Shown one piece after another: positions 4,357 to 29,037 of a stretch of DNA of 29,037 nt (its first letter is position 1; each line of letters begins with the position of its first letter). The translations under genes were made by a program, and so were the position numbers. The stretch is from Sistotremastrum niveocremeum HHB9708 (taxonomy: Eukaryota; Basidiomycota; Agaricomycetes; Sistotremastrales; Sistotremastraceae), in the NCBI GenBank assembly GCA_001630475.1, contig KV419481.1, positions 6,897 to 35,933 on the forward strand, written 5' to 3'. Below the pieces are notes generated by a model that was not told the origin of the DNA, made no database searches, and saw nothing but the letters and a program-made list of their open reading frames with translations.

Positions 4357-4454
4357 CTTCAGAAAAAATTAGACCTCCTATTTCAACTCTTGAGCGCTCC
4401 AGAGTACTCAAAAGTACTCCAGAGTCAAAATAGGAGGTCTATTTTTTTCTGAAG
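4357..4454. mobile_element. 98-bp hairpin MITE, copy 1
   Basis: Terminal inverted repeats CTTCAGAAAAAATTAGACCT / AGGTCTATTTTTTTCTGAAG extend over about 27 bp. An inner palindrome, GAGTACT-caaa-AGTACTC, lets the whole unit fold into a long hairpin. By eye it is identical over 98 bp to 9754-9851. Flanks show a 2-bp direct repeat GA/GA (4355-4356 and 4455-4456). It has no coding capacity. Sequence identity between the two copies implies recent movement or conversion. Confidence 0.85.
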
Positions 4455-5349: not shown

Positions 5350-5376
5350 GGAGATAACGGACCAAACCACCCTTGG
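5350..5376 (-). repeat. Right arm of 27-bp inverted repeat
   Basis: Reverse complement of 3663-3689 with three mismatches. It directly abuts the hAT-like fragment that starts at 5377. Confidence 0.5.
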
Positions 5377-5443
5377 TCACGACTGGACTTTTGATCCCCC
5401 GAGGGTCAATCAGTGACTGCCGGTCCAGTTGCCGTCCAAAAGT
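5377..5443. mobile_element. Fragment of hAT-like MITE
   Basis: GGTCACGACTGGACTTTT, then GTGACTGC-CGGTCC and CCAAAA, follow the same order as the left subterminal part of the full copy at 8821-8886. No intact terminus or target duplication remains, so this is a truncated copy. Confidence 0.5.
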
Positions 5444-7010: not shown

Positions 7011-7079
7011 ACATGTTCGAAATAACCAATCTTCCCTGTCCACCCTTTGGACTCAGGGCCCCCATCTCCACCAGCCTAT
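7011..7079. repeat. Dispersed repeat block, copy 2
   Basis: Contains ACATGTTCGA, CCACCCTTT, CTCAGGGCCCCCAT and CAGCCTAT in the same order as the block at 3434-3521, with a shorter spacer. Origin unknown. Confidence 0.5.
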
Positions 7080-8806
7080 ATCGTACTTCCATGACCACTA
7101 CATAATGCGCTTACACTGCTACGCTTGTCACCATACAATATTCAAACACCCACATGCATTCAAAACATAACAAACAACTCGCGAGAAAACCCCAACAACA
7201 ATCCACTAGCTGTAATGACCGTAGTCACAGTACAGCTTAGGGCAACAAAAATGCCCAACATTGATGAGGATCTCTACCATGAATTGTAGCGTGAAGCTGA
7301 ATTCGCACGGCTTTGCGGCCTGGCACATTCATAATTCTTTGCAGCCAAATTTTATACCCTACAATAAGGACTTTGTCAGTACGGCAGTACCTACACATGC
7401 CCACGGTCCAGTCTTGGGATCTGGCCATCTCATTCCCCTTCAACAAGATCTCACTCCATATCTGCAAAATCGGAACCCAAAGAATGGCCTCCGAGCACCC
7501 GGCCTGGGAATCGAAGTCACAGAAGGAGCTCGGAATAAAGAATCGGGGAAAGTCTACTACAGACTTGAGGGCCGCTGTAACTAGTTGGGTATCAAGAAAA
7601 TGAAGACATATGACGATGAAGGCAACGCACCTCCCGGATACTAAGAGGTCTTTGAGACAGTGTAATCTGGCGTGCATCCAGATGACGTAAGAGCATATTG
7701 GAAAGCACTGACAGCATGTACAGTATTCAATGGATGGAAGTCGACCAGCGAAGAGGTTCGATCGCGCATTCCGCTTGAAGTAGCGTTGATGAATCCACCC
7801 CAGCATTGGAGCGATGAAGCTCAAGAGCAAAGAGCACGTCGTCGGTGTTTATAGAAAGAGCAGCAATTGGGCAAGTCCAAGTGGCGCCATTTTGACTGGG
7901 CCAAATGTTCACTTCCGACCAAATCCATTGCTGTTGATCCACAAGACGTTGGCTTCCAAGCCTCTCAAGATTTCTCATCAATCCTTCCATCACATCCATC
8001 CAAACAATCCTACGATATGCACTCGGCTTTAAATGGAGTGTCAGTTTGGCCTTCTTCAGCCGTCATCCTCAATCAATTGGTCCATCATTGTCATTAACTC
8101 CACCTGCCATCCACTGAGTCTCGTAAGGCTGTTCAAATGATAAGGTCAAAGAAAGTGTTAAATCTCGTCCTCGCGGTCTCAGTATGAGTCATAATTGTAC
8201 TGTGTTTGCACTGTTCATGTCCTCATCTGCATCCAAAAGATCCTACACCCTGCAAGCTTGCCTTCAAGTCTACGAGTCTGATACCATCTTTCGTGATCCC
8301 TTTTGTGCTCATTGTTTCCACCGTTCTTTTTGGAGGCCATGCAACCGGCCTAGAATTACTTGTAGTCATGCCATAACAGTCGTCTAGCCAATACAACAAA
8401 GTTTACATCTTGGCAAAGCCTTATGTGGCGAACCAATATCACTGCATGCTTCAAAACTAGAGCTCCTAACGGTTTGGCCAGCTGAACCAAACCGGGGGTT
8501 TTGTCGCTTCAAATGCCCGTTAGGTTTGAGCGAGGGAGCAATTTCTGAGCCGGCCGTTTGAAACTGGGCTAACTGCGTCTATTCGCGGTTTGCTCGACTA
8601 CGCCGCCAACACGTTGTCTGTGCTGTTCGGGCTTGTTCTACGACCCATCTACGGGTCTTGATGCCTCTCTCAGCTCGACTTATGCACACACTCTCTGTAT
8701 AGTCCAACATACTGTCTCACCGTGACCAAGCAAACGATCCTCACGACTGTTGTCTGCTGCTGTGACATGGATCCATTATCTCCAGTCCTCGATCTGCACC
8801 GCAGGA

Positions 8807-9322
8807 TACGGTTTTAAAGTCCGGTCACGACTGGACTTTTTCCGTTTTTGCCCGTGACTGGCAACTGCCGGTCCGCTTGCCTGCCAAAATTTTGGGCAAC
8901 TGGCAACAGGACTGCAGTTGTGGTCTAGCAACCAGTTGCCACAAAGACCAGTTGCCTGACCAGTCATGGCCACGACCTGAGGTCACAACTGGTCTAAACC
9001 ATTATTTTAATCAATTATATATTACTGTTGGGTCTTATTAGTGGTCATATACTGTCTAGTAACACATAGGAACACTATATAATACAATATATGATGAATA
9101 TATGGCCATAAATACCCACTTGACACCCAAAATACCCAGGGTACACCCTTTCCCAGGACCCCTAAGGGTCCACAGTCACAACCACGGTTGCGACTGGTCA
9201 TGACTGCAGTTGCCAGTTGCCTGATTTTCAGAAATCCAGATGACCGGCAACTGCAGTCCAGTCACGACCCCACCACGACCGGCGGTTGCCTGCAGTCACG
9301 TGGACTGGACCTTCGAACTCTA
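8807..9322. mobile_element. hAT-like MITE, copy A
   Basis: 516-bp element with an 8-bp target-site duplication CCGCAGGA (8799-8806 and 9323-9330). The right terminus, read inward, is TAGAGTTCGAAGGTCCAGTC, which fits the loose hAT consensus YARNG. The left terminus, TACGGTTTTAAAGTCCGGTC, has diverged. Subterminal regions are packed with GACTGCAGTTGCCAGTTGCC-like words in both orientations, and the centre is AT-rich. It has no coding capacity, so it would depend on a transposase elsewhere. Copy B is inserted in the opposite orientation. Confidence 0.85.
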
Positions 9323-9330
9323 CCGCAGGA

Positions 9331-9753
9331 CAAGAACTTCTCTATGCCTTCAGCCATGTCATTCTGAAAATCTGGAGCAGAGTCAAGCGTTGGAGCTGTG
9401 GTGAGTATAGAGACCAAATGATGTGCTATGTCCCCTATATGTTCAAAAGTAACGCTATCCTTGAATAAAATCCGATGTTGGACTTGTCAACTTTATGTCC
9501 GAGGCATCAGAAGCGCTTGGGCATCTTCCGATGTATCCGGAAAGTCCCTAAACGGGAACCGTCGTGCTCAAAAAGAACAACTTTGCGATGAACGAAACCG
9601 ATATTACTAGTAATGGATTCAGAGCTGGCAGAATAAGGTTACAATTAGCTTCTAACAGCTGGTAATAGAATGAAGGTCCCATGAGCTTCGAACATTTGTT
9701 CGGTAACATATCCGGCAACGATGTAATAGTATTATCCAAGTCAATTGATCCAA
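9331..9753. other. Intergenic; possible decayed coding remnant
   Basis: No gene is supportable. Minus-strand ORFs on each side of the 98-bp MITE (9548-9808 and 9836-10078) could be one old coding segment split by that insertion, but no family signature was recognised and the reading is uncertain. Confidence 0.35.
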
Positions 9754-9851
9754 CTTCAGAAAAAATTAGACCTCCTATTTCAACTCTTGAGCGCTCCAGA
9801 GTACTCAAAAGTACTCCAGAGTCAAAATAGGAGGTCTATTTTTTTCTGAAG
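9754..9851. mobile_element. 98-bp hairpin MITE, copy 2
   Basis: Same 98 bp as 4357-4454 with no difference seen. It is flanked by AA/AA (9752-9753 and 9852-9853). The different flanking dinucleotides of the two copies (GA and AA) argue that a 2-bp target duplication is real, or that boundaries shift by a base or two. Confidence 0.85.
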
Positions 9852-10659
9852 AAGTATCGAAATGTTGTATTGATAAATTCCAAATCAAAGAAAACTGCTG
9901 CGTATACGATCTCGATCCATCTCTGAGATATCAAAGTAGTCATCTTCCAACGCAGCTTCACCCACTCAGTGCAAGAGTCCATTTGGCACAGCTCCGGCAC
10001 TCTCGGCAATTTGATGAGCGCCGGCTTTGTCATCTCATTCGGCGAACTCGGTGATATCTTCCAGAATATTGAGTGCATATAGAGGCTTCAATGCGTCATA
10101 TGGGATGTTCTGCTATTGATATTCTACCTGTACATATCAAAACATTTGTGACAAGGACTAAAATAGTTTAAATCAAACTGATTTTGCGCGCGGCAGGGAA
10201 GCCGCAAAGTTGGAAAGCCGACCTCAGCTCAGTTTTTTCCTTGGACTCTATTCCCACCTTAAACAGTCGCACTTCAACAAGCGCAAACCTGCCGTTGCAC
10301 CCCTCCCGTTCATCCCCCAATGTCCAAAGTTGAACAGCACCTCTGCGCCAGTTCGGCACCCTCCCAGCACATCCCTCCGCTCAACCGACCTCACTTACAA
10401 TTCCTTCATTCACCTTCTCATCACAACCACTCACACATGTTGCGTGACCGTCCGACTTCACCATTCTCTCAGCTTTGCCGGCATCACGGCCCGAACACCC
10501 TCTCCAACTACGCCGGTCGCCAAACAGACACCAACAATGCCGCTCCCCATCTCCCCAACCTTCCCACCCGCCGTCGATCTCCCCTCAACCTCTCCCTCTG
10601 AATCTAAACATTTATCTCCGGCAATTCTCCGCGTATTCCTTCCTTCGTCCTTTCTCGCG
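9852..10659. other. Intergenic, no supportable gene
   Basis: Composition shifts to C/T-rich after about 10250, similar to the flank upstream of the helicase gene. Long plus-strand ORFs (for example 189 aa from 10210) are Pro/Ser/Thr-rich, overlap in several frames and look like composition artefacts. Confidence 0.5.
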
Positions 10660-10925
10660 GTTGTTTGGTCGCCGCCTGGGTTTCTCCGGGTCGCAACCTC
10701 CCGGCTGCTCTTCTTTCCCTTTCCATTTTCCCCTCTTTTTTGCTCTTCTTGTTTCACAACATCAACCTATCTCCCTTAAATGCCCGATTATCCAACGCAT
10801 TTCCAACGTCATTGTTCTCCATTGGTCCCTCACCAGCCTCTCTCATTGGTGTTCGGTCAGTTTATCTTTTATCCTCCAATTATCCAAGCGTGCTCATCAT
10901 TTCATCCAGCTCGATCAGCGCCATC

Positions 10926-11431
10926 TAGAGTTCCAAGGTCCAGTCCACGTGACTGGTCGTATTGGGCAACCAGACTGAAGTCGCAACCGGACTGCAGTTG
11001 CCAGTTGCCTCAGTTTCTGAAAATCAGGCAACCGGCAACCGCAGTCATGACCAGTCATGACCACGGTCGCGACCGATGCTCAGGGAAGACCCTTAAGGGT
11101 CCCCAAACAGGGTGCTCAGAGGGTCATGTAGTGGTATTTTTCCCATGTATGAGCATGTATTCATGGTATATGATGTATATACAGTATGTATATGATCAAT
11201 AGACACCAATAGACTATATATAAGAGGATAAAACAATATATTAATGATTAAAATATTACATTTATAGGGTAGGCAACTGGTTGTGACTGGTCATTTGATG
11301 ACTGGTTGCCGGACCGTGACTGCAGTTGCAGTTGCCAGTCATGGACATTTTGGAATTTGGCAACCGGTCGCAGTTGCCAGTCACGAGGAATTTTGGAAAA
11401 AGTCCAGTCGTGACTGGACTTTGGAACTCTA
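10926..11431. mobile_element. hAT-like MITE, copy B
   Basis: 506-bp element with 8-bp target-site duplication GCGCCATC (10918-10925 and 11432-11439). Terminal inverted repeats TAGAGTTCCAAGGTCCAGTC and its partner differ at 1 of 20 positions. It shares subterminal GACTGCAGTTGCCAGTTGCC words, a CCCTTAAGGGTCC word and an AT-rich core with copy A, in inverse orientation. It is non-coding. It sits inside the duplicated helicase 5' flank, so it inserted after that flank existed. Confidence 0.9.
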
Positions 11432-12631
11432 GCGCCATCCAGCCCGATCGCGCTTTCTACCTAGAACTTTCGCCTCCCACAAAAGCGCCAGCCAACCTGA
11501 ATTCGGCCGATCAGCCACTGGCTCTCGATCAATGACTCCACTCTTCAACTACGCATTGTATACTGCTACAATGACCCTTCATTCGTCAACTGTGAGCTCC
11601 TCTTCATTATCAAACATCCTAACGAGCTCCCAACAAATTGAACCCATGTTTTAGCCTTTCGCTCATCCTAACAGAGTATCCCATTCTGCGCACCCTCACT
11701 TCTTATTTCCCTTGTGCTCCGAGTTCCGTCTCTCTCCAGTTGCTCCAGGTACATTGAACGAACGCGTGATCCTACCCATAAGTCTCATTGGTCGGTCGCC
11801 CTTTTTTAAAAAAATTGCCAGTGATCAAAACTGAATCGTCGACGCGCCAGCCTTTTCCGGCTCCTCCGGCAACCCTCCCCGCCACGGTTACATGGCATGA
11901 CCACATCGCTCTGTACTCTCCCTCTCCTCTAACTCTCCGTCAACTATTCCCACCCTACAATTTAACATTACACCCCGACCCAATTCCCTTGAGTACGCTT
12001 TATTTTTTAATTTTTTGGCCTTCCGTACTGAAACCGTTTATCCCAGCATCTCTCATTGCAAACAATCACTTGAAACACATCCCTTCTCTCGCTCCCGCTG
12101 ACTCCGTTGTCTCATTACAATCTCGGCCAGAGCGTCTAGCCCCGGGGCCCCAAATTTTCATTTCTTATCGCAATAAACTCCTTCTTCCCCCTGAGATTTC
12201 ATCGTCCCAACGACGAAATCATGGGTGAGTCCCTTCACCCCACGTGACATCTCGCCCTGGGACTCCAGCTCCCGGAGCAGGTCCTGTCCACTCGATTCCC
12301 TCCCAAACACTGCAATCACTGTTTCTGTGTCCATCACCTAGATTCGACCCGTCTAGTCATCCTTTCCCTCATTTGGCGCCTCCAGCTGCCGCTACAGGAA
12401 AAACCCCTCCCCTCCGACTACTTAGAGCCGTTCCCGCTTCGTCTATTTTATTTTCCGAGCCTACACTCGATCTCATTTATCTGTATCTCAGTCAGCAACT
12501 ACTTATGTGCCATTCCGCTTCTCGCCCAATATACCGGCATACGTTTACCACCTGATTTGTCGTGCCTCCAACCCCAAATTTTCCGGCTTGTTTTCTTTTT
12601 TTTCACCCACTTTCCCTTGCTCCACCCTCAG

Positions 12632-12640
12632 ATATAGCCA
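12632..12640 (+). promoter_or_regulatory. TATA-like element of truncated helicase copy
   Basis: ATATAGCCA lies 166 nt before the split start codon, in the same context as ATATAGCCAT upstream of the full gene. Conservation between the diverged copies suggests a core promoter element; this is inference. Confidence 0.4.
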
Positions 12641-12797
12641 CTGGCTCTCGAACTCTCCTCCTCGTGCGACCCCCAACTTAGTCTCACACCCTGTTAGTTC
12701 TCCTTCCTCGTTGTTCATTGTCCACCATCTAACTTCGCTTGCAGACTGATTATTCATTTGACAAGCCCTACCAAGCATTTCAACGTCAACACACAGC

Positions 12798-13111
12798 ATG
12801 TACGTCTCAACCTAATTGATTCCTCTCGTCCCTCACCATCCTCCAGGTATTTCCCGCAACACTGTGCTATACCCCACTGCTCTGCAGTTCTGGCAAATCT
12901 CGCCGACGCCGAAGCCCACGCCAATGAACACCCTCGCCCCAACTGCATTGCTTTCCTGTTGAAAGCCCAGACTAAGATGACCCAAGGTGTTATCAATTGT
13001 CATTTCCAACACCAATTTCCGTCCAAAACATCCAAGCAAATCTACAATCGATTAGCCGTTTCCCTGCCACTCCACAATTTACAAGAGCCATACACTCACA
13101 GCGAGACTTAA
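12798..13111 (+). CDS. Truncated helicase paralogue: one C2H2 finger
   Basis: Join of 12798-12799 and 12847-13111, giving 88 residues. The intron 12800-12846 (47 nt) splits the start codon AT|G exactly as in the full gene. After splicing the protein begins MYFPQHCAIPHC, compared with MHFPQHCPIPDC in the full-length protein. Finger residues C7, C12, H25 and H29 keep identical numbering. Similarity fades after about residue 30, and the frame stops with TAA at 13109-13111, the base before the TA-MITE at 13112. Everything downstream (other fingers, recombinase, helicase) is missing. It could be a pseudogene stub or a small expressed zinc-finger protein; conserved promoter, splice sites and finger leave the second option open. 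A stub is more likely. Confidence 0.55.
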
Positions 13112-13603
13112 TACTGTACATACACGACCGTAACATGCGGGCGTAACGGCGTACTGTACCTACATGACCAAAACATACGAGCGTTACGCGTTACGTTTTT
13201 TTAAATTACAACGTACAAGCTCCGAAAGATCTCACAATATTACCAATGCATGCGATCCTTTGTTTCCGAGAGTTATTAGACATATTGGTTGACGTGTTTG
13301 AGCACCAACGAGTGATAAGTGTCAAAATTTGAGGATCTCCGTGCGCGCTCCGCGGGCGCTTAGCGTGTGAAATACGTTGAGGTCATGTAGGTACAGTAAT
13401 CATTTTTCAAACGTAACATACCGCTTAACATACTACCTTGAAATATCTTATAAATACATCTCTATCGTTTCCGAGAAGTTGAAGCGGACCTTAGAACATT
13501 GTTTGAGCTATAGGGAGTGAAAGAGGTCGAAATAAAATGATCTCCGTTCTCCCTCCGCGGGCGCTTAGTGGTTCTCCTATGTTACGGTCATGTATGTACA
13601 GTA
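13112..13603. mobile_element. TA-MITE (outer copy), split by inner copy
   Basis: Left end TACTGTACATACACGACC at 13112 and right end GGTCATGTATGTACAGTA finishing at 13603 are inverted repeats of the CTGTAC family. Inside lies a second complete copy (13152-13398), so this is a nested insertion. The right half keeps the subterminal block CCTCCGCGGGCGCTTAG. Confidence 0.7.
13152..13398. mobile_element. TA-MITE (inner copy)
   Basis: TACTGTACCTACATGACC at the left and GGTCATGTAGGTACAGTA at the right form a perfect 18-bp inverted repeat including TA. The length (247 bp) agrees with the copy at 2578-2823 (246 bp). It is inserted near the left end of the older outer copy. It is non-coding. Confidence 0.8.
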
Positions 13604-13725
13604 CACAGCTGTCTTCGTATTCCGAAGCCTAACACTCTCTTTCCAAGCACTTTCTTGGTCCGATGATTCAAACGCACAGTCAAATGATGCTGTTTCAGAT
13701 GACGAAAACGTTACTCCCCACAAAT

Positions 13726-14190
13726 CAATCCACCATTTCTGCATCTGCTCCCTTCTCGGTTGGCCCTGCCTCTCCGGTCGAATCGGGAGTGGCTTCTTCG
13801 TACCCGCGTTTGGGCACGAGTTGAACGAATATAGCACCGATGAGCATTCCTTTCACAAAGACCTTGACGATTCGAGGATCGACCAACACTCGAATTTTCT
13901 TCTCGCGACAATCTGTGTCACCTTCGGAGGCCTGTCCGTTCGCGTCGAAAAATTGCGGTTGCCACAAATGAAAATCCACCAAAACGAAGGCAAGCCGCAC
14001 AAACAAGAAGGACGAGTATGCTGCTTATCGTGTGTTGAAGGACCTCGCGTACCTGATTCATACGATGTATCAAAATCAGTCTCACGACCGAAAGCAATTT
14101 CAACAGACCTTAGCCAATCACCTTAGCTATGATTTCTGCTTGCCTTCGACCGAATTCTTCGCCCGCGACTTCGAATAGCATTCTTCCTAT
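13726..14190 (-). pseudogene. Probable minus-strand coding remnant, unknown family
   Basis: A minus-strand frame open from about 14006 to the stop at 13726 reads like genuine protein: DTDCREKKIRVLVDPRIVKV, then FVKGMLIGAIFVQLVPKRGY and an acidic tail ending EMVD. Further upstream (14190-14120) another minus frame gives MLFEVAGEEFGRRQAEIIAK. A good acceptor (CGGACAG, about 13940) and donors such as GTACGC (about 14053) suggest small introns, but I could not settle a single model, and the frame between is interrupted. No domain was recognised. It lies between the MITE nest and the helicase 5' flank. It may be a truncated gene or a decayed one; the overlapping plus-strand 178-aa ORF is less convincing. 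Confidence 0.35.
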
Positions 14191-16190
14191 AACCGAAATC
14201 ACTATTCGTATTCATCAAATACTCGATTGCAGACGCTGACTCCTAGGCGAAACCGACACAATAAATGATCAATATATTCACAATCACCGACTGTGTTTCA
14301 TCCGCTAGCAGCCGCGCCGGATTTGACGGCCCATACTCCGTTCGGCATTCCCCTGAAGCTCTGGTTCGTTAGGTCTCTCTGACGCTCTCCCCCTCTCTCC
14401 CTATTCCTACTCATACTCCCGTCTCCCATTCACCGAAACCACCTCACTCAAGTCCATTCCCAAGTCGTTCGCGCGAGTTCCGGCTCTCGCATCCCAAATC
14501 CAGACTTTACGCCGCCGAAGGCCGAGCACCAAACACATCACAACATTCGACGCGTCCTCCTGCTACCTATCGACCCCAATCTCAACGCCAAACCAGCCGA
14601 TCTGATTCTTAATCTTTTCCCTTTACTTTCACCCCACATCCTTTTCCTATTTCGTCTCCTCTGGTCCAACTCGTCGCCGCCTGGGTTTCTCCGGGTCGCG
14701 CCTGTTGTGCCATTTTTTCATCCTCGCCCTTTCTCCCCCTCCTCCCTCAGACCCAAAACCCCCCTCATCCATCTATCGCTTTCTTCACATCCCCTTACCA
14801 TAGTCCCATCCTTCAATGAGTACGATACTGCTTGTGTTTCAATCGATCCATTTACGATCGCCATCGATCAGCCGAGCCTGGCCGCTAAAGAAATGGCCGG
14901 CAATTCTCCGTCGTAGTTTTCGTGCTTATCCAGCTCGATCATCAATACGGCTATCGGGTCATCTATCATGTCCTTCTCCCTAGAACCTTTCACATTACAA
15001 ATGTGAGCTCCTTCGGCACCAGGCCCGACAACACCCGATGGCTCACTTCGCACTCTGTCCAACTAGCAAATACACTATCTCATTCGACCACATTCAATCA
15101 ACGACATTTCCATCTACTCCCCAGCTCTGGGTACCCTTACTCACCCCAGGAGGCCACTTCATCTTCACCCTCCTCCCCCCAACGTCGCACTTTCCAGCTC
15201 ATTTGCCCGAGGCTTTCGGCACTACCAAACAACGCATGCCTGCACCCGAGCTCCGTTTGTCTCCCCTCAAAAATTTATCGATTCCAGAACCATGTCGATC
15301 CAGAATTCTTTGGGTAAGTTACCGCACTTTCTGTTCTACCCCTGAATTAATTTCTATTGCGTCAGTCTCTCTTTCCTCGCCGAATTGCCGAGCCTCGCTC
15401 TTGGCTACTGTTGGTCGTCCAATCGCAGCGTTTTACCCTCTCACCGCCTCGTATCCTCAACTCAACACCGTCATCGCATTCTCTCACATTTCGCACTTAC
15501 ACGTCTTACAGTTAGTCGCTCCTTTATTATTTTTATTATTTCCAATATACTCATTCACGTCAACCTTCAGTTCCCTCGACATTATCTCCCCCTGAATCTC
15601 AGCTCGATCCCCCCAGATCGATCCACTTTGAATCTCTGTTTTTCGTATTCCCGATCCAGCGATCGTTTTAACCTCATGACCGTTCGCACGAGGCCAATAT
15701 CCCCCAATTTTAATCCATCCTCTGACGAAGCATCCATAGCTCTGTCAACGCCTTCTAGAACGATTCGCAGAACGATTCGTGATTCCACCGGCCGCCTATA
15801 ATTTTCTCCCATCTCCTTCTCCGCCACCGAGCTCATCGCTTTGCTTCAACCCCATCAGTCGCCTTTTTTGGTGGTTTTTGGTTTTTTTTCGGCTAGGGCC
15901 CTCTCAATTACACAGCCAGAGCCTCTGAGTTGAGCGAGGTTGCTCAAATCTCTCGTCGAAAATCGAGATACCAATCGTTGGCCTGATCCCCACTCCACCA
16001 CTCTCCTGGACTTTTACCCCGATCGGCTCCCTTGCATCAAGGCAATATTGGACCTGGCTCCACGGCCATCCGAGAAAATATCGAGGGACATGTCCCTCGT
16101 TCGATATTGCAGTCTCGCCCTTTTTTACCGTTCCATTCGGTCCATTCCGTCTCTACCTTGCCGGCCGACACGCCCTCCATTTTCCCTCAC
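14191..16190. other. Pyrimidine-rich 5' flank of helicase gene
   Basis: About 2 kb of C/T-rich sequence with many overlapping Pro/Ser/Leu-rich ORFs in all frames and no convincing gene. Parts of it are duplicated at 10.66-12.8 kb. It probably contains promoter and long 5' leader sequence of the helicase gene; possible leader introns cannot be defined from sequence alone. Confidence 0.5.
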
Positions 16191-16200
16191 ATATAGCCAT
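16191..16200 (+). promoter_or_regulatory. TATA-like element of helicase gene
   Basis: ATATAGCCAT lies 185 nt upstream of the split start codon. The word and its surroundings, including downstream GTGCGAC and AGTCTCAC words, are preserved in the truncated copy at 12632, which is the main support. Confidence 0.4.
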
Positions 16201-16375
16201 CTCCCCTCGTCTCCCTTTCCTTGTGCGACTCCCTACCCAGTCTCACTCCCCGTAAGTCGAAATTTCCCTCTCCCTTCCCTCCGCCCTCCAGCGTCTCACG
16301 TTCCATTCCTAGGTTTTGCTTTCGCACCTTGACGCAATTTTCAAAGCAACTACTAATCGCCCAGACACAGACAGC

Positions 16376-19300
16376 ATGTACGCTTTTTTTTTCTTTCCAA
16401 AACCACCTCTGACTGACTTCTCCTAGGCATTTTCCGCAACACTGTCCCATCCCCGACTGCCTCACGGTTCTAACTTCCCTCCAACATGCGGAGGATCATT
16501 CTCTCTTGCATCCGGACGACCGCCATTGCATGCAATGTCCTTTAATGTTTGCCGACCAGGAAGACCGTCGCAAACATGTCAAGGAGGTTCATCAATCCGC
16601 TGTTCAGTTGGCGTTTAATGGTTCGTACCTTGTCTCTTCCTCCCGACCTTAGCCAACCCTGTTATAGGAGCCAAATACAAGCTTTACCGCCAACAATCTG
16701 GCACATTTGCGTGTCCTGTCAGCCCTTGTGCCGATGGTACCGCGGATCATCCCTTCGCCTCGCCTGTTCCTGGCACTCTGCAGGCCCATTGGAACCGCCG
16801 CCACAAGGATCTCCAAGCCGGTTTCCTTGCCTCTCCCGATATCATCCTGGATTTTACCCTTTTCCTCCAGGACGGCACACCCGCTACCGTCACTCCCGCG
16901 GTCGTAATCGACGTCGACGACGAAGATCCTGCTCCGGTCATCCCATCCGATACCCCAGTAGATTCCTTCCACGCCGAAGCTCTCGCTTTGGGAGCTCTTG
17001 TGGATGTATCACCTCCTCCTCTCGCTCAGCCCATTCCGACTTCTCATTCCGACGAACACGTCGATCTCAGCGATGTTCCCGATCTCATAGACCTAGACGA
17101 TCTCAGCGATGTTCCTGATCTCATAGACCTAGACTATGAGACCGACGAAGATGAAGACGACGCAGACCCAGCTCCCCTTCCCCAGCCTCCATCCGAATCA
17201 ACCGACGATCAAGCCCAGCGCATTGCCCAACTTCGCGAGCCCAAGCTTGAGACTTCCGTCGACCCATCTCCCGACTCCACTCCCATTCGCTCTGATCATG
17301 ATCTCTTCGGGATGGGTTACTTGATCCATGCTGGATTTCACGTAGCTATCTGCACCAACTGCCACGAAGCCGTGTCTCCAAAGTCCCTGATCACTCACGC
17401 TCGCGCTCATGGCGTTCCTCCCTTACCCCAAGCTCGAGTTGATGAGGTTTGCGTCGAATTCGTCTTGGTTTCACCCCCACAGGCACCTCGCTTGCCCATC
17501 GGTCCTCCAATTCCCCATCTTCGTCCTCCCATCCTCGGTCTCTTCGGTTGTCCCAGTTGCTCCTACGCTGCCAAGAACGTGTCTACCGTTCGCGAACATC
17601 AGAAGGGTCATCACCCTTCTGAACCTCGCTCTCATCCTCTCGACGGCATTCATACTCAGCAGCTCAACAGTGCCACCCAGACGGCCCATTTCCAAGTCGA
17701 TATCTCCCTCCCACCTCTTATCAACACCACCTCCGCCCAATCAGCTATCACTAAGATCGTCTCCGAGCAAATCGCCCGCGACACTCAATACCAACGCCTT
17801 CCGCCGACCACGAAGCATGTCGATATCTGGCCTCGCAAATCCAAATGGCACCATGCTCTTCGCAATGCCGATCGCAAAACAGTCCATCAACTGGGGGCTT
17901 TCCCATCTAAACAAATACGGGAAGACTCCTGGCTTTTGCGTCTCACCAAACCAGCATTGCGCTATTTCACCGAAGCCATCACCGCCACCGCTGGCTTGAC
18001 TGCCGATACCCGTGCTCAACTCAAAAATCCATATCCCAAAGAGTACGTATTCACTCTCATCCTCGCGATTCCTTTTCTAATCGGATTCTAGATTCAATCA
18101 CAGTCCATCCAGCTACGCCGAACCCCAAGAATCCGTCACCTTCCAGACCTACGCTCGCTATGGTGTCCAGATTCTCGCCTGTATCCTCCGATCCATCCAC
18201 CAACCTGTGCCTGGATTCGACATCACTTTTACTCCGGAGCAGTCCCCACACATACAGGCTCTGTATCGCGCTCTTCGTGACAATGCGCAGCCTGACATCA
18301 TCCAATCTCTCATCCATCCCCTATTCTTCTCCCTCGTTCAGAGCTTCTCTGGACGCGTTGCCGACGATGACTTTCGTTGTCCTCTAGTCTGCGCCAATAT
18401 TGCCACGAATGTCAACGCTGAAGGACAATTACGCGATATTCGAGCCATAGCTCCAACCTTCACCCGCTTGCAGTGGTGTATTCGCGCAGTAGTTGCCAGT
18501 CATATCTCCCAGAGGCCCGACTCGTTGTCAGAGGATGCGTACGTAACTCTCCTTTCTCTTATTCGTCCTCTCACTCTTTGTCTTTCAGAGCATGCCTTGA
18601 GATCGCCCATCTCATTATCGAACATGAGCCCACTCCGTTCGGTCGAAACCGTCGATACATCCATATCATCAAATACATCATTGAAGGATCACCCTCTAAG
18701 CCAACCGTGGTCTACAGCGAGGATGGTCGTAGCCTCAGTTGCCTCGGCGACGTCCTCTCCCTTCAGGTTCTTCGGGACGGAGTTCACAGGCTTCTCGACG
18801 AAGTCGAATCCGACTTCGCCAATCTCGTCCTTCGTGGTCTCCAGTATCCCGAGCTCGAACACCTCCTCTCACGCTTCTATGACCCTCTCGACGATTCAGT
18901 TCGCGTTCACGACAATCATCGTTCTACGACACCCGGTTATTCTTTCGTTTGGGATCCCCGCAACCCATTTCAGCCTTTTCGGTTTCGCTTTCTAGCCGAT
19001 CTCATTGATTCCAACGTCCAATGCGAAGGGAATAATTTCTGGGTCGATGGCAAGCTCAATTCCGCTGCCATCTCACACTGGAACCGGCAGACGACCCTTT
19101 GGTGGGAGGTAAGCTTCATTCTCAAACGTAACTGTCATCCCCCCTCATCAATCTCACAGAAAACCATCATACTCTCGCATATCTGTTCCGGCGGGTCTTC
19201 TCGTGCCACCGAATTCTCCCTCATCACCCATGCTCAACTCCACGACGGCGACCGTAAGGTTCACACCATGCCCCAGGGCGTCGTCTTGCTTTTCACGTAC

Positions 19301-22300
19301 TCCAAGAGCAGCGAGAATACTGCGCGCGACAAGATGGTATTCAAGCCCCTCCCCAAACGTCTCTCCAACGTTCTCACGACTTTCCTCGTCCTCGTTCGCC
19401 CGGCCGAATTGGCTCTTGCCCCCTACGCCGGCATGACGCAGCGCCAACAGGAGAATTACGCGACCCATCTCTTCGTCGCCGAGGGCGAACTCATCACCGA
19501 CCAGCGAATCCGATTCCTCATGAGACGTATCTCCGATTCCTATTTCGGTATCGGTCTCTCTTACAATCAGATTCGCCACATCTTCAAAGCCATCACCCTT
19601 CGCGAAACCGGCCACGATCTCGACAACATAGACACCCACGAAGAACGTCCCGCTGATGCCGTCTTTCATCACAAACGGGGTACCGCCGACCGACACTATG
19701 CTGTTCACCCCGAGCAGCACGAGTCCAGTCGTCAACCGGCTTTTCAGGCTTACCTCAAGATCGGATATCTGATCCACGAATTTCTTGGTCTCCGTCAGCC
19801 CCCGATTCCTCTTCTGGATACGTCCGTGACGCCTTCCAATCTTCCTATGGTCACCGCGGTCAGTCCTTCTCTCTCCTCTTCTTCCGCCGATTACTTACTT
19901 TTGTTTTAGACCTTGACCTCCCTGATTGACTCTCTCGACGCGAGAATCACCGATCAGGTGGCCTCCTTGAAACATAGCCTGTTTCTCGGTCTATCCCAAG
20001 TCCTCAACGGCCTTCCTACCACTTCCAGTCCGCCTGTCGAAGCCGCAATTCGTCGTCCCCTCGATTTGGATATACACGCGAGTCGACTTACCGTACTTAC
20101 GCGATACTACCTCGACATCAATCGACACCCCCCTACTATGCTTGAACTCTCACAACCGAGCTTTCGCAGCTTAGAACAAGCACAGTACGTCGACCACATC
20201 CTCTATTGTCGCGGACACGCTGTCGTCGTGCTTCCCACCGGGGGTGGCAAAACTGTGGGTATCGCTGCTGCTGCCTATCTATACGAGAAGGTCGCCGGAC
20301 TGATCGTGGTATTCCTTCCCTTCATCGCCCTCATGGAGAGTGCGTACCACGATCTCTGTCGCATCGCTCCCACAGCTCGTTTCGGCCGTGACGATTGGTC
20401 TCCGTTCACGACGAAGATCCTCCTCATAAGTCTCGAGCATCTGACAGATCCTCGCCATCTTCGGTCGTTTATGGGACTCCACGGTCACATCAAATACATC
20501 TTCCTCGACGAGATCCACGAACTCCTCATCAACAATTCTTTTCGTCCCCTCTTCAACGATCTCAAACAATTGATCTCTCTCGGATGTCCCATCATCATGA
20601 TGTCGGCGACTATTCCTCCCACTTCCGTCGATACACTTCTCCAACGTCTCAACATCGCCTATGCCCAGATCATCCGAAAGCCAATCACCGCACGACCTGA
20701 AATTCGATATGCTGCCCACAAGATCACCCCTCAAGAACTTCCTTCCCGCATTTCCGACTTCCTCGAAACTCATCCCTGCGGATCCAACGATCGTGGTATC
20801 GTCTTCTGCACCACTAAGAAGTCACTCGCCGAACTCGCCGTCGCTCATTCCGGAGTGAAGTATCACTCCGATCTTTCCCGCGACGAACGAGAGCTAGCTA
20901 CCGCTCGCTGGGAAGAAGGTCGCGAGGCCGCCGATCGGGTTATGTTCGCGACGAAAGGATTCGGCACTGGGGTTCATATGCCAGGCGTTCGATTCGCCGT
21001 ATTCGCCGGAGAACCCGATGGTATCCTCCAGTTCGATCAACCTGCTGGTCGAGCAGGTCGTGATGGGAAGCCCTGCGACGTCGTCATCTTCTGGTTTAAC
21101 CTCCCTCGTCGTTTCCCTTCCTCCGACTCGGATGCTCTTCATCATGGTGGATTCGATGCGCTCTGTCGTATGCTCAGTCATCCTACGCGATGCCTTCGTT
21201 GGGAACGGAGCGAACACATCGATGGTAAGGGCCTCACTTGCGCCTCGCTGTCTGGCGTATATCTTCAATTATGTCAACGATGCGAAATCGAATCTGTGAG
21301 TCTCCTCCCTCTTTTGTATGTTCCATTGTCTAATTCTATTTCATAGCAATCCAACATCGACTTCCTCGCTCTCGCCGACGCTCTCCAACCTCCGCCTGCC
21401 CCAACCTATGCTGCCGACCCATTCGAATCCGCCGATCACCTCCCCATTCCTCCCCCTCAGTTCCAGCCCAGCCAATCGTCTACCGTTTCTTCGACCTCGA
21501 CCTCGACCCTGACCACCGACAACTTCTTCAGCCACGGGACTCGTCACTCGTCGAACACCAATGCGTCTTCCTCCCAAGCGACCACGCTCGTTGCCCCCAG
21601 GACCCCGACGAAGTCGCAACAGTCCGATTCAGTCTTCGGGGTTATCTCCCCTTCCAGATCCGTCCCCGGTCAGCCAGGTTCACCAAGTGCGTTTCCCGGT
21701 ATATCCTTAAATTTCCTTCACTCATTGTCTCCGTAGGTTTCTCTCAAGCTTTGAAGCGGACCGTCCACGATGCTCATCACACCCCTCGCAAATTCGAGAA
21801 GCGTCTCAAACCATCCAATCCATCTCCACCCCGACCCTCGTCTGTGACTGCGCGATCTTCGACGCCATCACTCCCTTTTCCTGGGTCGACTGTGCTGTCG
21901 ACGATGAATCACTCGCTACCCTTCCTTCCCCCTCTTCCAACCCCTTCACTCCTCGGTAGCACTCACCCCACTGTCCCACTTATCCCTCTGTTCCCTAACT
22001 CCACCGAGATCCCACCTCCAACTATCCCCCTCGCTCTTCAGCTTCCGACAATACATCACTCCGACGACGTCCTACCTCCCACCGCTCAGCCCCTTTCTCT
22101 GCGTGATAAACTCACTATCGCTCGGAAAGCAGACTTCGACGCGGCAGTATTACGTATTGTCTCCAGGACTAGCGAAGCAGCCGAACAATTTCGCGTCAGC
22201 GCCGATTGGGGTGAAGGATGTCCTCTCGAGCTCGTCCTCCGCAAACACAACATCCTCCACCTCCATCCCGACGCTAATCCCAACGGCTGCGCACCGCATT

Positions 22301-22701
22301 CCGGTCTCTACTGGTGCAAGAACTCGCTCATGCAGACGACGTGGAATACGCAATGGAAGTCGTGGCGTGAGCGTCTGCCTTACCGCTGCCAAATCCGTGA
22401 GCAGTACCACACTCGCTGTTGGGCGCCAATGTGGGCCCCTAACCATTGGTATCATTACAAGAACGCCAAAGGCCACTGTTCCGACTTCCTCAAGGATTTC
22501 TGGGTCGCACTGTGGTATAGCCCGATCCGTTCTTCCCTCATCGCCCACGTCTCTCTCGACCCCTCCGTCTCTATCACCAACGTCTTCGACTATCAAGAAT
22601 GGCTCGTAAAGCGATGGAATTCCGACACACTCCTCATCAACGGAATCGTCATGGTTCACGAGTGGTTACAGATGTATCAGTTACTTGTTTCCGTCGCCTA
22701 G
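16376..22701 (+). CDS. Telomere-linked RecQ helicase with OrsD-like fingers and tyrosine-recombinase domain
   Basis: Proposed exons: 16376-16377, 16427-16620, 16668-18042, 18092-18538, 18589-19108, 19160-19858, 19910-21295, 21347-21686, 21737-22701. The sum is 5,928 nt (1,975 aa plus stop), all junctions in frame. Five C2H2 fingers: C7/C12/H25/H29, C35/C38/H51/H56, C81/C86/H106/H111, C294/C297/H309/H313, C360/C363/H376/H380, resembling OrsD/DUF3505. Acidic linker about 195-230. Residues about 850-1030 show a tyrosine-recombinase pattern: R861 (SSRATE), K895 (YSKS), R985 (NQIRH), H1017 and Y1026 (HHKRGTADRHY). RecQ core: PTGGGKT 1188-1194, DEIH 1279-1282, SAT 1311-1313, QPAGRAGRDG 1456-1465; zinc segment C1507/C1523/C1534/C1537. 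A Ser/Thr/Pro linker and a Cys/His/Trp-rich tail follow. Presumably nuclear; related in kind to tlh of S. pombe and UTASa of Ustilago. All key motifs are intact; function is inferred. Confidence 0.85.
17063..17134 (+). repeat. 36-nt in-frame tandem duplication
   Basis: Two head-to-tail 36-nt units differ by one C/T change and encode DLSDVPDLIDLD twice in the acidic linker of the helicase protein. The near identity indicates a recent duplication. The unit reads as an acidic, hydrophobic motif that could bind a partner; one resemblance is to SUMO-interacting motifs (DLIDLD), which is speculative. Confidence 0.85.
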
Positions 22702-23482: not shown

Positions 23483-26400
23483 ATGTCGTCCCCGTACGCA
23501 TCCTCTTCGTCGAAATTATTTCTCCACTTACGCCCACCCTCAAGGCCTGTCTCACTCCCGAATGACATCCGCGATCGCCCTCGATCGTTTGCGCATTCCA
23601 CCTCCACCGATTCAGCCTTACCTTCCATGTCTTTCTCAACCCTTCAATCGGTATCCTAATCTCCACCTCCTCCCATAATATCACTCTAACCTACGACTTT
23701 TTAGGCTATACCCAAAGCCGAACCCCAATCCGTCGACCAGAAACTCCCTATACCCTTGGCTGAATTGCAGGATACCATGCGATTGTACACCGACCCAGTT
23801 CGACCTCGCTTCCTGAGCTCCCCAATCTTTCAGCTCACCGATTCCCTCAACGTCCTCGTGTACTCTCTCAATGTGCATACCCATCCATCGTATGCTCCAG
23901 AGCTGTCTGCATCAGCTCTGCAAAGAGATCCTAAGCTGCACCTCTTTACTCACCCTCAGCTGTTCACTCCCTCGTACCCTTGGGCTCCCCTCATACCTCT
24001 CATGCCCCGCGTCGATGTCACTGTCCTAGCGCCATTGCGTTATCAGTCTCCCTGGCCTCTGGAACGAATTAATCATAAATTCAGCCTCTCGCCGACGCTC
24101 ATTTCAGAGTGGAGAGATATACACCTGCGTCTCCAGCGCGTGGTTGATGTCCTCCGTAACTATTGTCTCCACTCCCTCCCCTCCAAGTCTTGGCAAAGAC
24201 AAATAACCGCTCAACTTGTTATCCCTCCTCCCCCCTCTCGATTCGGGTTTGAGCAACACCATCGCCACGCGGAGGTCGCGCAGCGTCAATGCTTCCTCTC
24301 CCATGTCACATTTCGTTTGTGGTTGGGTCTCGTCCTCTTATTTATGAAGATGCTCCCTCCCGTTCGTCCAACTGATTTACCACAATGGTTTCATGCATTG
24401 GCCAAAGCCGGCTTCTCCTCAGCCTGGCTCAACGATTTTCAGACTTCAAATATATTCCGTGACTCGCTCTCCGGACCTCGACGTCCTGGCGCTTTCATCG
24501 ACATGAACGCCTTCCGAGATCATCCAGTCTATCAACCCCTCCTTTCGCTCTACCTTGACCTCCAGGTTCCTCTTTACTATCGTTGGAATGACGAAATCCA
24601 ACAGGCGAGTCTTCATCGAAACTACTCCAACTGGCTCGCCCCATTTCGACCCCTCAGCACCGCAGACCTCAGGCCTATCTGCATATCATCCATCCTCAAT
24701 CGAGGCAAGCCCCAGCGCCCACCTCCACCTCTCCCACTGGCCGACGATTCGGCTCCAGAACTCTCCCAATATCTTCTCCAAGGACAACTCCGTCGCTTTC
24801 TCCATCCCCCCTCCTACGAACAACGTCAGCGCAGTGAGGCGCTCGCAGCGTTTCACGATCAGAGTCTTTCGAGCTATTGCCTCGCCGTTTCCACCGTTTA
24901 CGAATGGCTCCAAGATTTACCCGGCGGTCGCTGGAGACAAACTCTCGTTCCTACCTCACTTAAGCTGGTCGCATTCTCCCAATATCCTCGTCACCGTCGC
25001 GTTTACGTTCCCGAGGAAGACACATGGCATCTCTGCCTCGGCTTCCGCAATGAACGTTTTCCCGCATCACCTGTTCCCCTTTCTACCCCTTCCTGGTACG
25101 AAGATCTAAGCGTCGCCGGGGTCGAATATTCCGTTTCAACAGCGATTGACGCTATGAATCACGATCACGGGTCTGACATGGACGTTGATCTCCGGTCATT
25201 CGACCCTCCACAAGTCGCATCACCACCACCACTGATTCTCCCTCCCACCGAGCTACTGTCCGTTCCCACTCCGTCGTCTCCTCCCAACCTCACTTCTGCC
25301 AATTCCACCGTCGAAGAATGGCTACGTGAGCGCTTCGGCTTCAAACCACTGTTATATATTGGCGCGACCGACCACCAAACCTGGGATGCTTTCCGTGCCA
25401 GCTTTGGATTTTTGCCGACTTTAGAACAACCGGAGATCAATGCTCCAGACCTCATAAAGTTCGTTGAAAGGATCCGCGCCTTGGGCGCACGACTGTGGGC
25501 CGACGAACAGATTCCTGACAGCGAATTGGTAACGGCTATTCAACCTCTGCCTCCCCCTCCAAGCTACACTCAGCCCCTCCGACTCCATGCGCATCCTCTA
25601 GCATCGGACTCAGCGATGTCTAAACCTCCTTTCCGTCGCTCTCCTCGCTACCTATATCGTTTTACCCACCCCCCATCTCGAGTCAACTGGGATTTGGTCG
25701 TGTTTTCCGCCGTCGATGCACTCTGGATCGTCCGTCAGAGATTCCCGACTCTCCCTGCGGCCCTCCTTAAACTCGTCTCGCATGGAATTCCAGTCTCAAC
25801 TATGACGACCTCCTCTCGAACGCGCTCCTCAGTCACAGCCATCGATCCCCCTTCCTACTCCCTTCCTCACCACCAAGAAATTCGTCGTTACCATGCTCCT
25901 GATACTCTGTTCTCTGCAGATGATTACGCATCCTATGAAGAACATTGCCGTCAGCTGTGCCTGCGCCCCGGTCTTCGAGCTGCACTCGCCCGTGGTGGTA
26001 TACTTTGGCGAATTGTCCAAGATTATTTGGACAAAGACCTTGTCCTCGGTGGCCCATCTGACGATGCCTCCATCTATGGTATCAGATTTGGTCTCCCGAC
26101 TGCACCTGCCGCTTCCAACAATCCGTTGTGGGACGATTATCTTAATCCTGAAGTCGCTGACGCCCTCTGCGGTCTTTTCTGGGCCGGTAAATGATTCCCC
26201 CTCCGTTTAACTTACAAGTGCTCACCTCACCAACTTTCTCTCCATTCAGAAGGTGTCGTCGACCCCAACAATCCAAAGTCTGTTCGCGAGGTCAAGTATT
26301 CTTATTGGCCCCCTCCTGTTCTGTGGTCAAATATGCGTCATAGCAATGATTTTGGCGCATGGTCCGAAACCAATGAACGTTGGTTTATCACTCTCCGCGA

Positions 26401-26554
26401 CCAATATCGTGCCGGAACTGCCCAACCCAAACGTATTTCCCAGTGGCGTCAAGAACTTCGCCAATTCTCCAAAGACCTCCGACACTTCCGTCTTGCGATG
26501 GAAACCGTCTCCGCCGCCCAGTTACGCCAACTGCTGGAGGAACCTGACGCATAA
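23483..26554 (+). CDS. Helicase-linked companion protein, function unknown
   Basis: Exons 23483-23650, 23705-26186 and 26250-26554 give 984 residues. Introns of 54 and 63 nt have GTATCC/TTTTTAG and GTAAAT/ATTCAG ends. The start ATG at 23483 (MSSPYASSSSK) is chosen because its frame joins in phase to exon 2 and a TAG lies upstream in that frame. The protein is Pro/Trp/Arg-rich without signal peptide or clear catalytic motif. Notable segments are LWDDYLNPEVADALCGLF near residues 864-881 and, in the last exon, YWPPPVLWSNM, WSETNERWF and QWRQELRQF. The C-terminal half resembles, from memory, an uncharacterised family that is multicopy in Agaricomycetes; I could not check this. It lies 0.78 kb downstream of the helicase on the same strand and is the last gene before the telomere, so a shared role or joint spread is plausible. 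Confidence 0.75.
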
Positions 26555-28801
26555 CCCCTCGCCAGTCTCTGTCTCTCCTCCCTCTCTCTGTCCACGATCT
26601 CGATCTCCGTTAGCTTACCTCGGTCTTTCTTGTAAATACATCTCCAAGCGAATAAATCAGTTTCGTCGCACTTCACCAATTTCCCGGAGACGGATGATTA
26701 TCAGTCCACCAGTAAACTCAACGTGACATCCAAAAACCTCGTTCAAGCATACCGATATCCGTCCTCCATGCTTCGAACATAGCCCCACCGGGCAGAGTCG
26801 TATCATATCGCTGCAACCAACAGATGTACCTGTTACCCTCAATCAACCTTCACTCTCTCACTGGCATGCTTCGCAGATATTCTCCCATTCCTGTTCTCCC
26901 GAATCGAAGCGAAGATTTAAACACCACCACAGCGGTAACCTATTCCCATACGTGTAAGATGACCCTCGCTGATTTCTTCAGTTTCTAACCGCATCACCTC
27001 ACCCACTTTCCATGATTACAAGTCGGCCTTGGCACATGCCCACCGAAGTTACTAGTGCTAAACATCACTGCTTGTTCACATTCAAAATCCATTGTCGAAG
27101 GTACCATTCGTCCTCTCCCACTAACCTAGTTCGTAGTACCGTCCCCGAAATTACCGTTCGTCGACTGTCCTTCTTTAATTGCACAACACCCATCTGACGC
27201 GAGTTTATAGACTACTACATCTCGTCAAGTCCCCTCCCCATAAATCGCAACTTCAGTAAGGTTAGCGGTTCGATTTCGCTCATGACAAGCCCACCATCAT
27301 CTTTCTCGCAGCGATTACGTGGCTGGCGTATCACAAATCATCCTGTTCGATGTTCCCCAAACTCATGCCGACTCCCATTGCCCGATTCATTTAGATCTGA
27401 CTGATCAACGTCCTCAACATTCTGCTTCATTGTTGCAGAAGGCAGGCTGCATACCCGAATTTAGGCCTTTTCCCTGCATTAGGATCATCAACGATCGAAT
27501 TCTCGGCTTCGTATTCGCTGATTTAGCCACATCCGAGCCTTTGTCCTGATTCATCGCAGTACCGCCGACGTAAGAGTATCATACCAACGAATGGAGGTCG
27601 GTATCATACCCGGGACGCATACCTCAAGCATTCATATCTATCAACACTTTCGTCTCCACCCTGAGTGTCTTAACTTTTCTCCGCGTTATATGTGCTACTT
27701 CTCTTTCTCACTGCGATGCTAGGCAATGTCGTACGCTAAAATTCCACACCTCAGATCGAAATCCGGTCGCATCCAACAGTACAGTAATTTATCCTCAGTC
27801 TGGCCCTCACATGGTTCGCTACCTCAACTATCATGACCGACGCAAGTTACACAGATGTCCTGGGATATTCATTATCTTTCCGTCCTCGCAGGGATATCCC
27901 ATCCCTCGACCATCTGACCCACCAAATCTGGCCTTTGAGCTAGCCTCTTCCGTTCCCCACGTCGCACTACTGTTATCCATCGCCGGTTATGCTCTCCTAC
28001 GTTGACTTGCTCATTTGTCTCAATCCTATCTCACTCATCCATCGCCAATCTACTTCGTATCGTTGCATATTCTCGATAGACTTTCCTTCCTTCCCCACCT
28101 TCACTCATTCCTTGATGTCAGAACCTATTCAGGATCAGCTATAGTGCTCGTGTCCTCTCGGTTCGCACAGGATCTATTGTTGTCACCCATCAGCAATACG
28201 CATGGCGTTCACTCCCATCGTCTTCGTGCTCTTAGCTTAGGACCCTTTTCCACATTCAGAAGACTCTCAACCCCCCTATTCCATGTTCATCTCGGTCTCA
28301 CATACTCCCTATTCGTCCTCCTCGCGCCTTCAGTATCCTATCTCCCGCATCCATGTCTTATAACTTACCTGACCCTCGTAACCTAACGTTCTCCATAAGC
28401 TATTCGACCACTCGCTAAATTATTCATACCTATCACCGCTCCACATGAACCATCCGCGTATCTGTCAAAAGTCCTGCCCAATTCAATTGTCTCTCCAAAC
28501 CCCCTCCAACCGCGCGTCCGTGTCGTCCATATCATTGGCCCAAACAAACACCTTCTTCTTCTCTCCATTCCGATCTCGACACTCACGGCAACAAACTTCC
28601 TCCCACCCTCCGCGACTTCACTTTGGCTTAGCTTTGCTCGCAATACCCACCCGAATTTGTCCCCATAGTCGACTGTCCCGAATCGACATGCGAGTCTGAA
28701 TCATGACGTACTCAAACTCGTTCAGTCCAATTCTCCCTCCCCACGAAATCTCGAGGACACCAAGTCTGAGATCGGGATATCCCAATTGCTTCTAGGCTCA
28801 G
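26555..28801. other. Subtelomeric DNA without supportable gene
   Basis: About 2.2 kb with C/T bias and only short ORFs (76 aa from 27319, 64 aa from 27811, 123 aa from 28015, 84 aa from 28445). None shows consistent codon use, splice structure or family motifs. One interstitial GGTTAGCGGTT word, containing the TTAGCGG telomere unit, is at 27260-27270. It presumably includes the companion gene 3' UTR and telomere-associated sequence. Confidence 0.5.
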
Positions 28802-28850
28802 CAAAGACGCCACTCTCTTACCAAAGACGCCACTCTCTTACCAAAGACGC
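28802..28850. repeat. Tandem repeat, 20-bp unit, 2.4 copies
   Basis: CAAAGACGCCACTCTCTTAC occurs at 28802-28821 and 28822-28841, followed by a partial CAAAGACGC at 28842-28850. It sits 86 bp before the telomere and may be the end of a subtelomeric satellite. Confidence 0.9.
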
Positions 28851-28936
28851 CCATCTAAAACGCAGCCAAATCCTTTTCCCAAACTCTGTGTTCGCCTCCT
28901 AATGTGAACTAAATCCGCCCACTCCGCATTTCAAGT

Positions 28937-29037
28937 TTAGGTTAGCGGTTAGGTTAGCGGTTAGGTTAGGTTAGCGGTTAGGTTAGGTTAGCGGTTAGGT
29001 TAGGTTAGCGGTTAGGTTAGCGGTTAGGTTAGGTTAG
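28937..29037 (+). repeat. Telomere: mixed TTAGG and TTAGCGG units
   Basis: The last 101 bp parse completely into eleven TTAGG and six TTAGCGG units plus a terminal TTAG. Every TTAGCGG is separated from the next by one or two TTAGG units. The G-rich strand runs 5'->3' to the window edge, which fits a right chromosome end. The standard filamentous-fungal repeat TTAGGG does not occur. The array continues to the edge, so the full length is unknown. A telomere-like subtelomeric satellite is the alternative, but terminal position and composition favour a true telomere. Confidence 0.85.

Follow-up and report, generated by a model that had tools for sequence, protein, structure and literature searches.

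A telomere-linked helicase gene of Sistotremastrum niveocremeum with a putative tyrosine recombinase domain between its OrsD zinc fingers and RecQ helicase

The window analysed here, a stretch of 29,037 nt from Sistotremastrum niveocremeum HHB9708, is the end of contig C88 in a 34.7 Mb genome of 111 contigs, and carries a gene of the telomere-linked helicase (TLH) kind that ends 6.2 kb from telomere repeats. After removal of eight GT-AG introns of 47-61 nt, a single open frame extends from the ATG at 16376 to a stop codon ending at 22701 and predicts a protein of 1971 AA. This splice model, drawn from the sequence, matched exactly the coordinates given in an earlier note on this DNA, with residue numbers 4 lower than those used there. 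Strong motif-level evidence, although not proof of fold, points to a tyrosine recombinase domain lying between the zinc fingers and the helicase. The features of the locus are as follows.

16376..22701, + strand: whole gene, nine exons, 1971 AA, with OrsD zinc fingers, middle region, recombinase-like domain, RecQ helicase and C-terminal region (splice model)
16427..18042, + strand: zinc-finger region, exons 2-3 (intron 16621-16667), with the OrsD/PF12013 match at about 17333-17614
18104..19108, + strand: middle region, exons 4-5 (intron 18539-18588), recognised by tblastn to paralogs
19160..19858, + strand: tyrosine-recombinase-like catalytic domain, a single exon, recognised by the invariant residues of the copies and the register with XerD
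19202-19204 (R857), 19304-19306 (K891) and 19574-19576 (R981), + strand: putative catalytic codons in that exon
19670-19672 (H1013) and 19697-19699 (Y1022), + strand: further putative catalytic codons in that exon
19910..21295, + strand: RecQ-type helicase core (PF00270/PF00271) with GGGKT, DEIH and GRAGRDG motifs
21347..22701, + strand: C-terminal region, two exons, related by tblastn to C99 and C63
28937..29037, + strand: telomere repeat array of mixed TTAGG and TTAGCGG units at the contig end

The order of OrsD fingers, middle domain and RecQ helicase beside a telomere, which the earlier note had read from the letters, was borne out, with profile searches recognising the fingers and the helicase. 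For the fingers, PF12013 matched with an E-value of 2.7e-6 on residues 239-332 of P0001, and a search of the genome placed the same match at C88:24229-24513. The helicase matched PF00270 (E 5e-12), PF00271 (E 1.1e-10) and TIGR01389 (E 9.7e-30, under the curated cut-off of that family), and RecQ structures ranked top in the search of solved structures, with 4tmu as the best (E 1.3e-16). The C-terminal region had no Pfam match above cut-off, and part of it was related by tblastn to the equivalents on contigs C99 (26% identity) and C63 (24%). By the same method, the second half of the middle region also aligned with a RecQ-less copy on C36, and this region, lying upstream of the catalytic domain, is possibly its core-binding part.

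Members of the TLH family are also found in fission yeast and Magnaporthe. RecQ-like genes have been described at fungal chromosome ends since 1998 (a reference in PMC10532341), with roles proposed from the helicase core. Ustilago maydis carries the TLH genes UTASa and UTASb, and passages of PMC10532341 describe the latter as a conserved 'core' and/or an OrsD domain. Passages of PMC7473861 describe subtelomeric RecQ helicases of Agaricus bisporus var. burnettii in which no other domain was found, and report no telomere abnormality in A. bisporus var. bisporus, which lacks these genes; near-telomere RecQ genes of other fungi appear in parts of PMC5576322 and PMC10817607, while a passage of PMC4522978 mentions RecQ families and Cryptons separately. 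Like the U. maydis genes, as these passages present them, the window gene is a subtelomeric, multi-copy gene with a RecQ core, and its one protein combines OrsD and RecQ with a conserved middle part; the same literature passages assign TLHs no recombinase domain. The word 'recombinase' does not occur in the main texts of PMC7473861 and PMC10532341, nor was a recombinase assignment to telomeric RecQ proteins found among the open-licence PMC titles and abstract starts that were listed.

Within the recombinase-like exon, R857 (in SSRATE), K891 (YSKS), R981 (NQIRH), and H1013 and Y1022 (both in HHKRGTADRHY) follow the order R-K-R-H-Y with an H-to-Y spacing of 9, as the earlier note had reported apart from the shift in numbering. 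Four complete catalytic domains, those of C88 (the window), C63, C6 and C36, were compared at pairwise identities of 21-34%. Only 23 of the 201 columns were invariant across these copies, and all five residues were among them, as was an E three residues past R857 (R-x-x-E). The incomplete rows agreed wherever they covered the site (R, E, K and R in C50 and C21; H and Y in C99), so that R, E, K and R were conserved in 6/6 covering rows and H and Y in 5/5, with the R-K spacing fixed at 34 (6/6) and the H-to-Y spacing at 9 (5/5). By our own hypergeometric estimate, the chance of finding all five among the invariant columns is about 1e-5; the five residues had been picked by an earlier reader without any alignment. 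Conservation had been named in the earlier note as one of two tests of its claim, and within this genome every copy retained those of the five that it covers. Similar GRGTE, YHK, WRH and GHS...Y blocks occur in ascomycete OrsD-RecQ proteins.

The first His of the HxxR box is Asn in the window protein, as previously noted, and was replaced in all six covering rows (N, N, N, Q, R, A). Across the tyrosine recombinase superfamily this His is less strictly conserved. Its loss would suit a recombinase fold that no longer cleaves but still binds DNA or joints, as a domesticated relic within a telomere-maintaining helicase, and the induction of some TLH genes in telomerase-negative survivors of U. maydis, described in passages of PMC10532341, fits such a helicase-only host role. 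An enzyme that had lost its activity should, however, shed some of its catalytic residues, and here the Tyr and the R/K/R/H set have not varied although roughly two thirds or more of all residues have, so this explanation strikes us as improbable.

To compare the domain with XerD-type enzymes, a 7-row domain profile (the filter kept 6 rows, Neff 2.5) was aligned by hhalign with an 84-row XerD-type profile, with shuffles, the domain profile in reverse and further regions of the protein itself as controls; UvrD and RecJ decoys were dropped for having too few relatives (2 and 1), and the lambda Int relatives (80, at 99% identity) were left out. The comparison gave a score of 25.2 and an E-value of 0.0053, and its unguided register placed the R, K, R, H and Y on XerD R148, K172, R247, H270 and Y279, and the Asn on H244. 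The reversed profile scored 12.1. Column shuffles reached the score in 1/200 and 1/300 trials, and placed four of the catalytic residues in 9/300 and all five in 0/300. Other regions of the protein gave E-values of 0.18, 0.18 and 0.4 (the middle region alone, 0.18), and adding the upstream region to the domain profile gave 0.022. The hhalign signal is thin, as expected for so shallow a family, and the shared register is its strong part. The domain thus resembles XerD and the phage integrases (PF00589) in the order of its R, K, R, H and Y, the R-x-x-E box, the H-to-Y spacing and the register, but differs from them in its R-K spacing (34 vs 24), its R-H spacing (32-40 vs 23), the missing His of HxxR, the absence of a PF00589 match and its fusion to zinc fingers and RecQ.

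Several results weigh against the recombinase assignment, beginning with the missing HxxR His and the R-H spacing, which was 32 in three rows and 40 in one. HHalign's own probability was 6.8%. Shuffles of 10-column blocks, in which motif blocks are kept, reached the score in 8/200 and 17/300 trials and placed all five catalytic residues in 2/300, one of these at or above the score; the realigned profile gave an E-value of 0.02, and six random 25-row subsets of the template gave 0.0027-0.098. The recombinase exon was without match in Pfam (E up to 10) or NCBIfam (E up to 1); the same all-Pfam hmmscan, whose PF00589 model misses this exon, returned no DUF3435 match to it either, and the sole PF00589 match in the genome was a sub-cutoff one of 16.2 bits elsewhere. 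Against PHROGs (E up to 10), the domain gave no match for two of four copies and weak, unrelated ones for the other two. A profile search of solved structures with the domain alignment returned three matches (E 0.12, 0.18 and 0.82), which we judged to be chance, and AlphaFold, run on the catalytic exon alone as a single sequence without alignment, gave nothing usable (best mean pLDDT 31.8). All the copies compared come from one genome, the C50 copy ends after the second Arg and continues as unrelated sequence, and the genome search gave no OrsD hit at C63.

If the five residues were a chance pattern in an unrelated domain, the lack of any library match, the weak E-values and the block shuffles that reach the score in 4-6% of trials would all be accounted for. 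Chance would not readily place all five in the 23 invariant columns of 201, nor produce the unguided register or the difference between 25.2 and the 12.1 of the reversed profile, and we regard it as very unlikely. A tyrosine-recombinase-like domain, as the earlier note proposed, is supported by motif, conservation and XerD register; no PF00589 match appeared.

When the genome was searched at the protein level, 10 places matched, corresponding to six loci on C88, C50, C21/C99, C63, C6 and C36; the C36 and C6 proteins, used as queries in turn, brought no further locus. Pattern matches in viral and genome contig collections, 11, 31 and 15 stretches, included zero relatives. C21 and C99 have facing contig ends with a common 8-base end, and each seems to carry one part of a single gene, although we kept them unjoined. 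Overall the copies were 21-66% identical, and the nearest to the window gene, at 63-66% protein identity, is broken; the copies are old and none is recent. For the window and C50 pair, dN was 0.22-0.25 and dS 1.4-1.6 (near saturation), with dN/dS of about 0.14-0.18, and since dN is far below dS the lineage has been under purifying selection. All five OrsD hits in the genome lay upstream of a recombinase-like domain on the same strand. On C6 and C63, recombinase and helicase share one uninterrupted frame of 944 and 798 AA, respectively, which supports the fusion independently of the splice model of the window. The C36 paralog (L019, C36:36001-45500; 3752-7569, minus strand) consists of OrsD fingers and the recombinase-like domain, and neither a scan of three frames nor the genome search with the window helicase exon gave a helicase match there; that exon matched C88, C99, C63 and C6 only, and C50 could not be read over the part expected to contain a helicase. 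Because the C36 paralog has no RecQ match, OrsD and recombinase would be the shared core; RecQ looks to be an optional part, and the C36 paralog a natural minimal version. We rejected the reading of an ordinary RecQ gene and nothing else, as the sequence that precedes the helicase, approximately 1100 residues long, is conserved over much of its length in C50 and over parts of it in other copies.

The earlier note had suggested looking for copies at other chromosome ends, and copies near other contig ends were found; of the six loci, three lie on ends with visible telomere repeats. If C99 is taken as the terminal contig of the C21/C99 pair, all six genes run toward their nearest contig end, an agreement that by our arithmetic would arise by chance 1 time in 64. 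The exact 19-base word GGTTAGGTTAGCGGTTAGG of the telomere repeat occurred at 13 contig ends, and C6 ends in a variant, which makes at least 14 telomere-bearing ends, since any with other repeat variants would have been missed; a gene copy was seen at 3 of the 14 (C88, C63 and C6), within about 7 kb of the repeats on C63 and about 44 kb from them on C6. In the array at 28937-29037 of the window, TTAGG and TTAGCGG units are mixed without a regular order. The GC skew of the window (1-29037) was -0.28, C-rich toward the telomere; it was -0.38 on C21, -0.34 on C99 and -0.16 to -0.21 on C6 and C50, and weak (-0.08) at C63, C36 and one interior stretch of C6.

Telomere resolvases and type IB topoisomerases work by a related chemistry (R-K-R-H/K-Y) that does not strictly require the HxxR His. 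The missing His, together with the location near telomeres, would be consistent with a resolvase- or topoisomerase-like action on the chromosome end itself, but the contig ends bear TTAGG/TTAGCGG repeats, with hairpins being invisible in an assembly, and we give this explanation very little credence.

A further alternative is that the gene supplies the recombinase for a true mobile element with Crypton-like chemistry that targets subtelomeres, the helicase playing an auxiliary part at a single-stranded or replicative intermediate. Cryptons and Starships (DUF3435) are fungal mobile elements that use a tyrosine recombinase, and the window gene can be likened to them, by description alone, as another eukaryotic tyrosine recombinase; none is known to have a helicase fusion, and no convincing element ends were found at the window gene. 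The several near-end copies, all six oriented toward the contig end with C99 taken as terminal, the existence of a RecQ-less version and the patchy presence at 3 of the 14 telomere-bearing ends seen would all fit such an element. In passages of PMC5576322, subtelomeric RecQ families of Colletotrichum higginsianum are treated as transposable elements; these have a single orientation relative to the telomere and a helicase without detectable RQC or zinc-binding domain, but they differ from the window gene in that one element has DDE and HTH motifs, and the passages leave tyrosine recombinases unmentioned.

Some of the evidence tells against such mobility. Exact and imperfect repeat scans of the window found no convincing terminal or bounding repeats around the gene; insertion footprints of a few bases would show only against an empty site. 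The few weak two-copy direct repeats that bracket it, which might otherwise favour an element, were judged to be chance: an exact 11-mer at 16240/23549 and imperfect pairs at 14672/23386, 13434/26616 and 13846/26022 (79-82%, 21-29 nt). None of the 10 matching places is a near-identical copy, the copies being old (21-66% identical). By DNA search, 26560-28930, from the neighbouring open reading frame (ORF) to the telomere, is unique in the genome, and a search of 9000-16370 (40 of 311 candidates scored) found matches elsewhere for repeat segments up to 11434 only and none for 11435-16370. With no convincing element ends and no recent copies, mobility is unproven, and we consider an element of this kind rather unlikely; an old subtelomeric family under selection accounts for the data no less well than an active transposon would. 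The earlier note suggested that telomere-linked helicases are, or derive from, recombinase-driven mobile elements; here copies near contig ends were seen, and convincing element ends and recent copies were not. Nor did we see recent spread from telomere to telomere, which it had also envisaged, given the lack of bounding repeats, the unique flank, the old and broken nearest copy and the presence at 3 of 14 ends.

Other features of the flanks were recorded in their own right. A 92% match of C50 to window 11251-11439 was considered as a shared gene flank and rejected, being instead part of a dispersed, solo-LTR-like repeat of about 507 bp (10926-11432) that recurs, in part as incomplete copies, at no fewer than 32 other places with 89-96% identity; one copy lies about 0.5 kb upstream of the helicase-family gene of C50. 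Window positions 9000-9324 also match dispersed repeats, at 95-97%. A MITE-like segment of about 490 bp (13112-13603) contains internal repeats and has terminal inverted repeats of 25 nt that are 96% complementary, and at 692-1053 there are minisatellite arrays, rich in pyrimidines, whose periods range from 10 to 70 bases. A short translated similarity of 12851-12943 to the zinc-finger N-terminus of the gene (16428-16514) is possibly the relic of another copy. Between the helicase gene and the telomere lies a large ORF of 829 AA, with a possible further exon (23705-26554), which had no Pfam or NCBIfam match and has eight places in the genome on C88, C13, C81 and C6 (three on C6, up to about 39 kb from the end), and which may represent a second subtelomeric gene family.

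Taken together, the reading we favour, and hold to be moderately probable, is that the N-terminal half of this TLH protein consists of OrsD fingers followed by a tyrosine recombinase domain that acts in recombination at chromosome ends. The architecture, the conservation of the five residues in the genome, the XerD register, the near-end distribution and the signs of purifying selection are observed; by analogy with XerD-type enzymes and RecQ helicases, we infer the fold, the chemistry, the DNA target and the outcome, which may serve the host, a selfish element or both. The zinc fingers would dock the protein on subtelomeric DNA, and Tyr1022, aided by R857, K891, R981 and H1013, would cut one strand to form a 3'-phosphotyrosine link. 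The RecQ motor could then open the adjacent duplex to permit strand exchange and resealing, with recombination between or at chromosome ends as the predicted outcome. This reading is compatible with a mobile element.

As a wider and more tentative possibility, fungal TLHs as a class may be tyrosine-recombinase enzymes in which an OrsD and recombinase core acquired a RecQ motor, and which persist at chromosome ends either as telomere-targeted selfish elements or as domesticated end-recombination enzymes. A built-in strand-cutting recombinase, if confirmed, would offer a reason for the location of TLH genes at chromosome ends and may provide a telomerase-independent route of end recombination, and among the tyrosine recombinases of eukaryotes these proteins would form a branch fused to a helicase.

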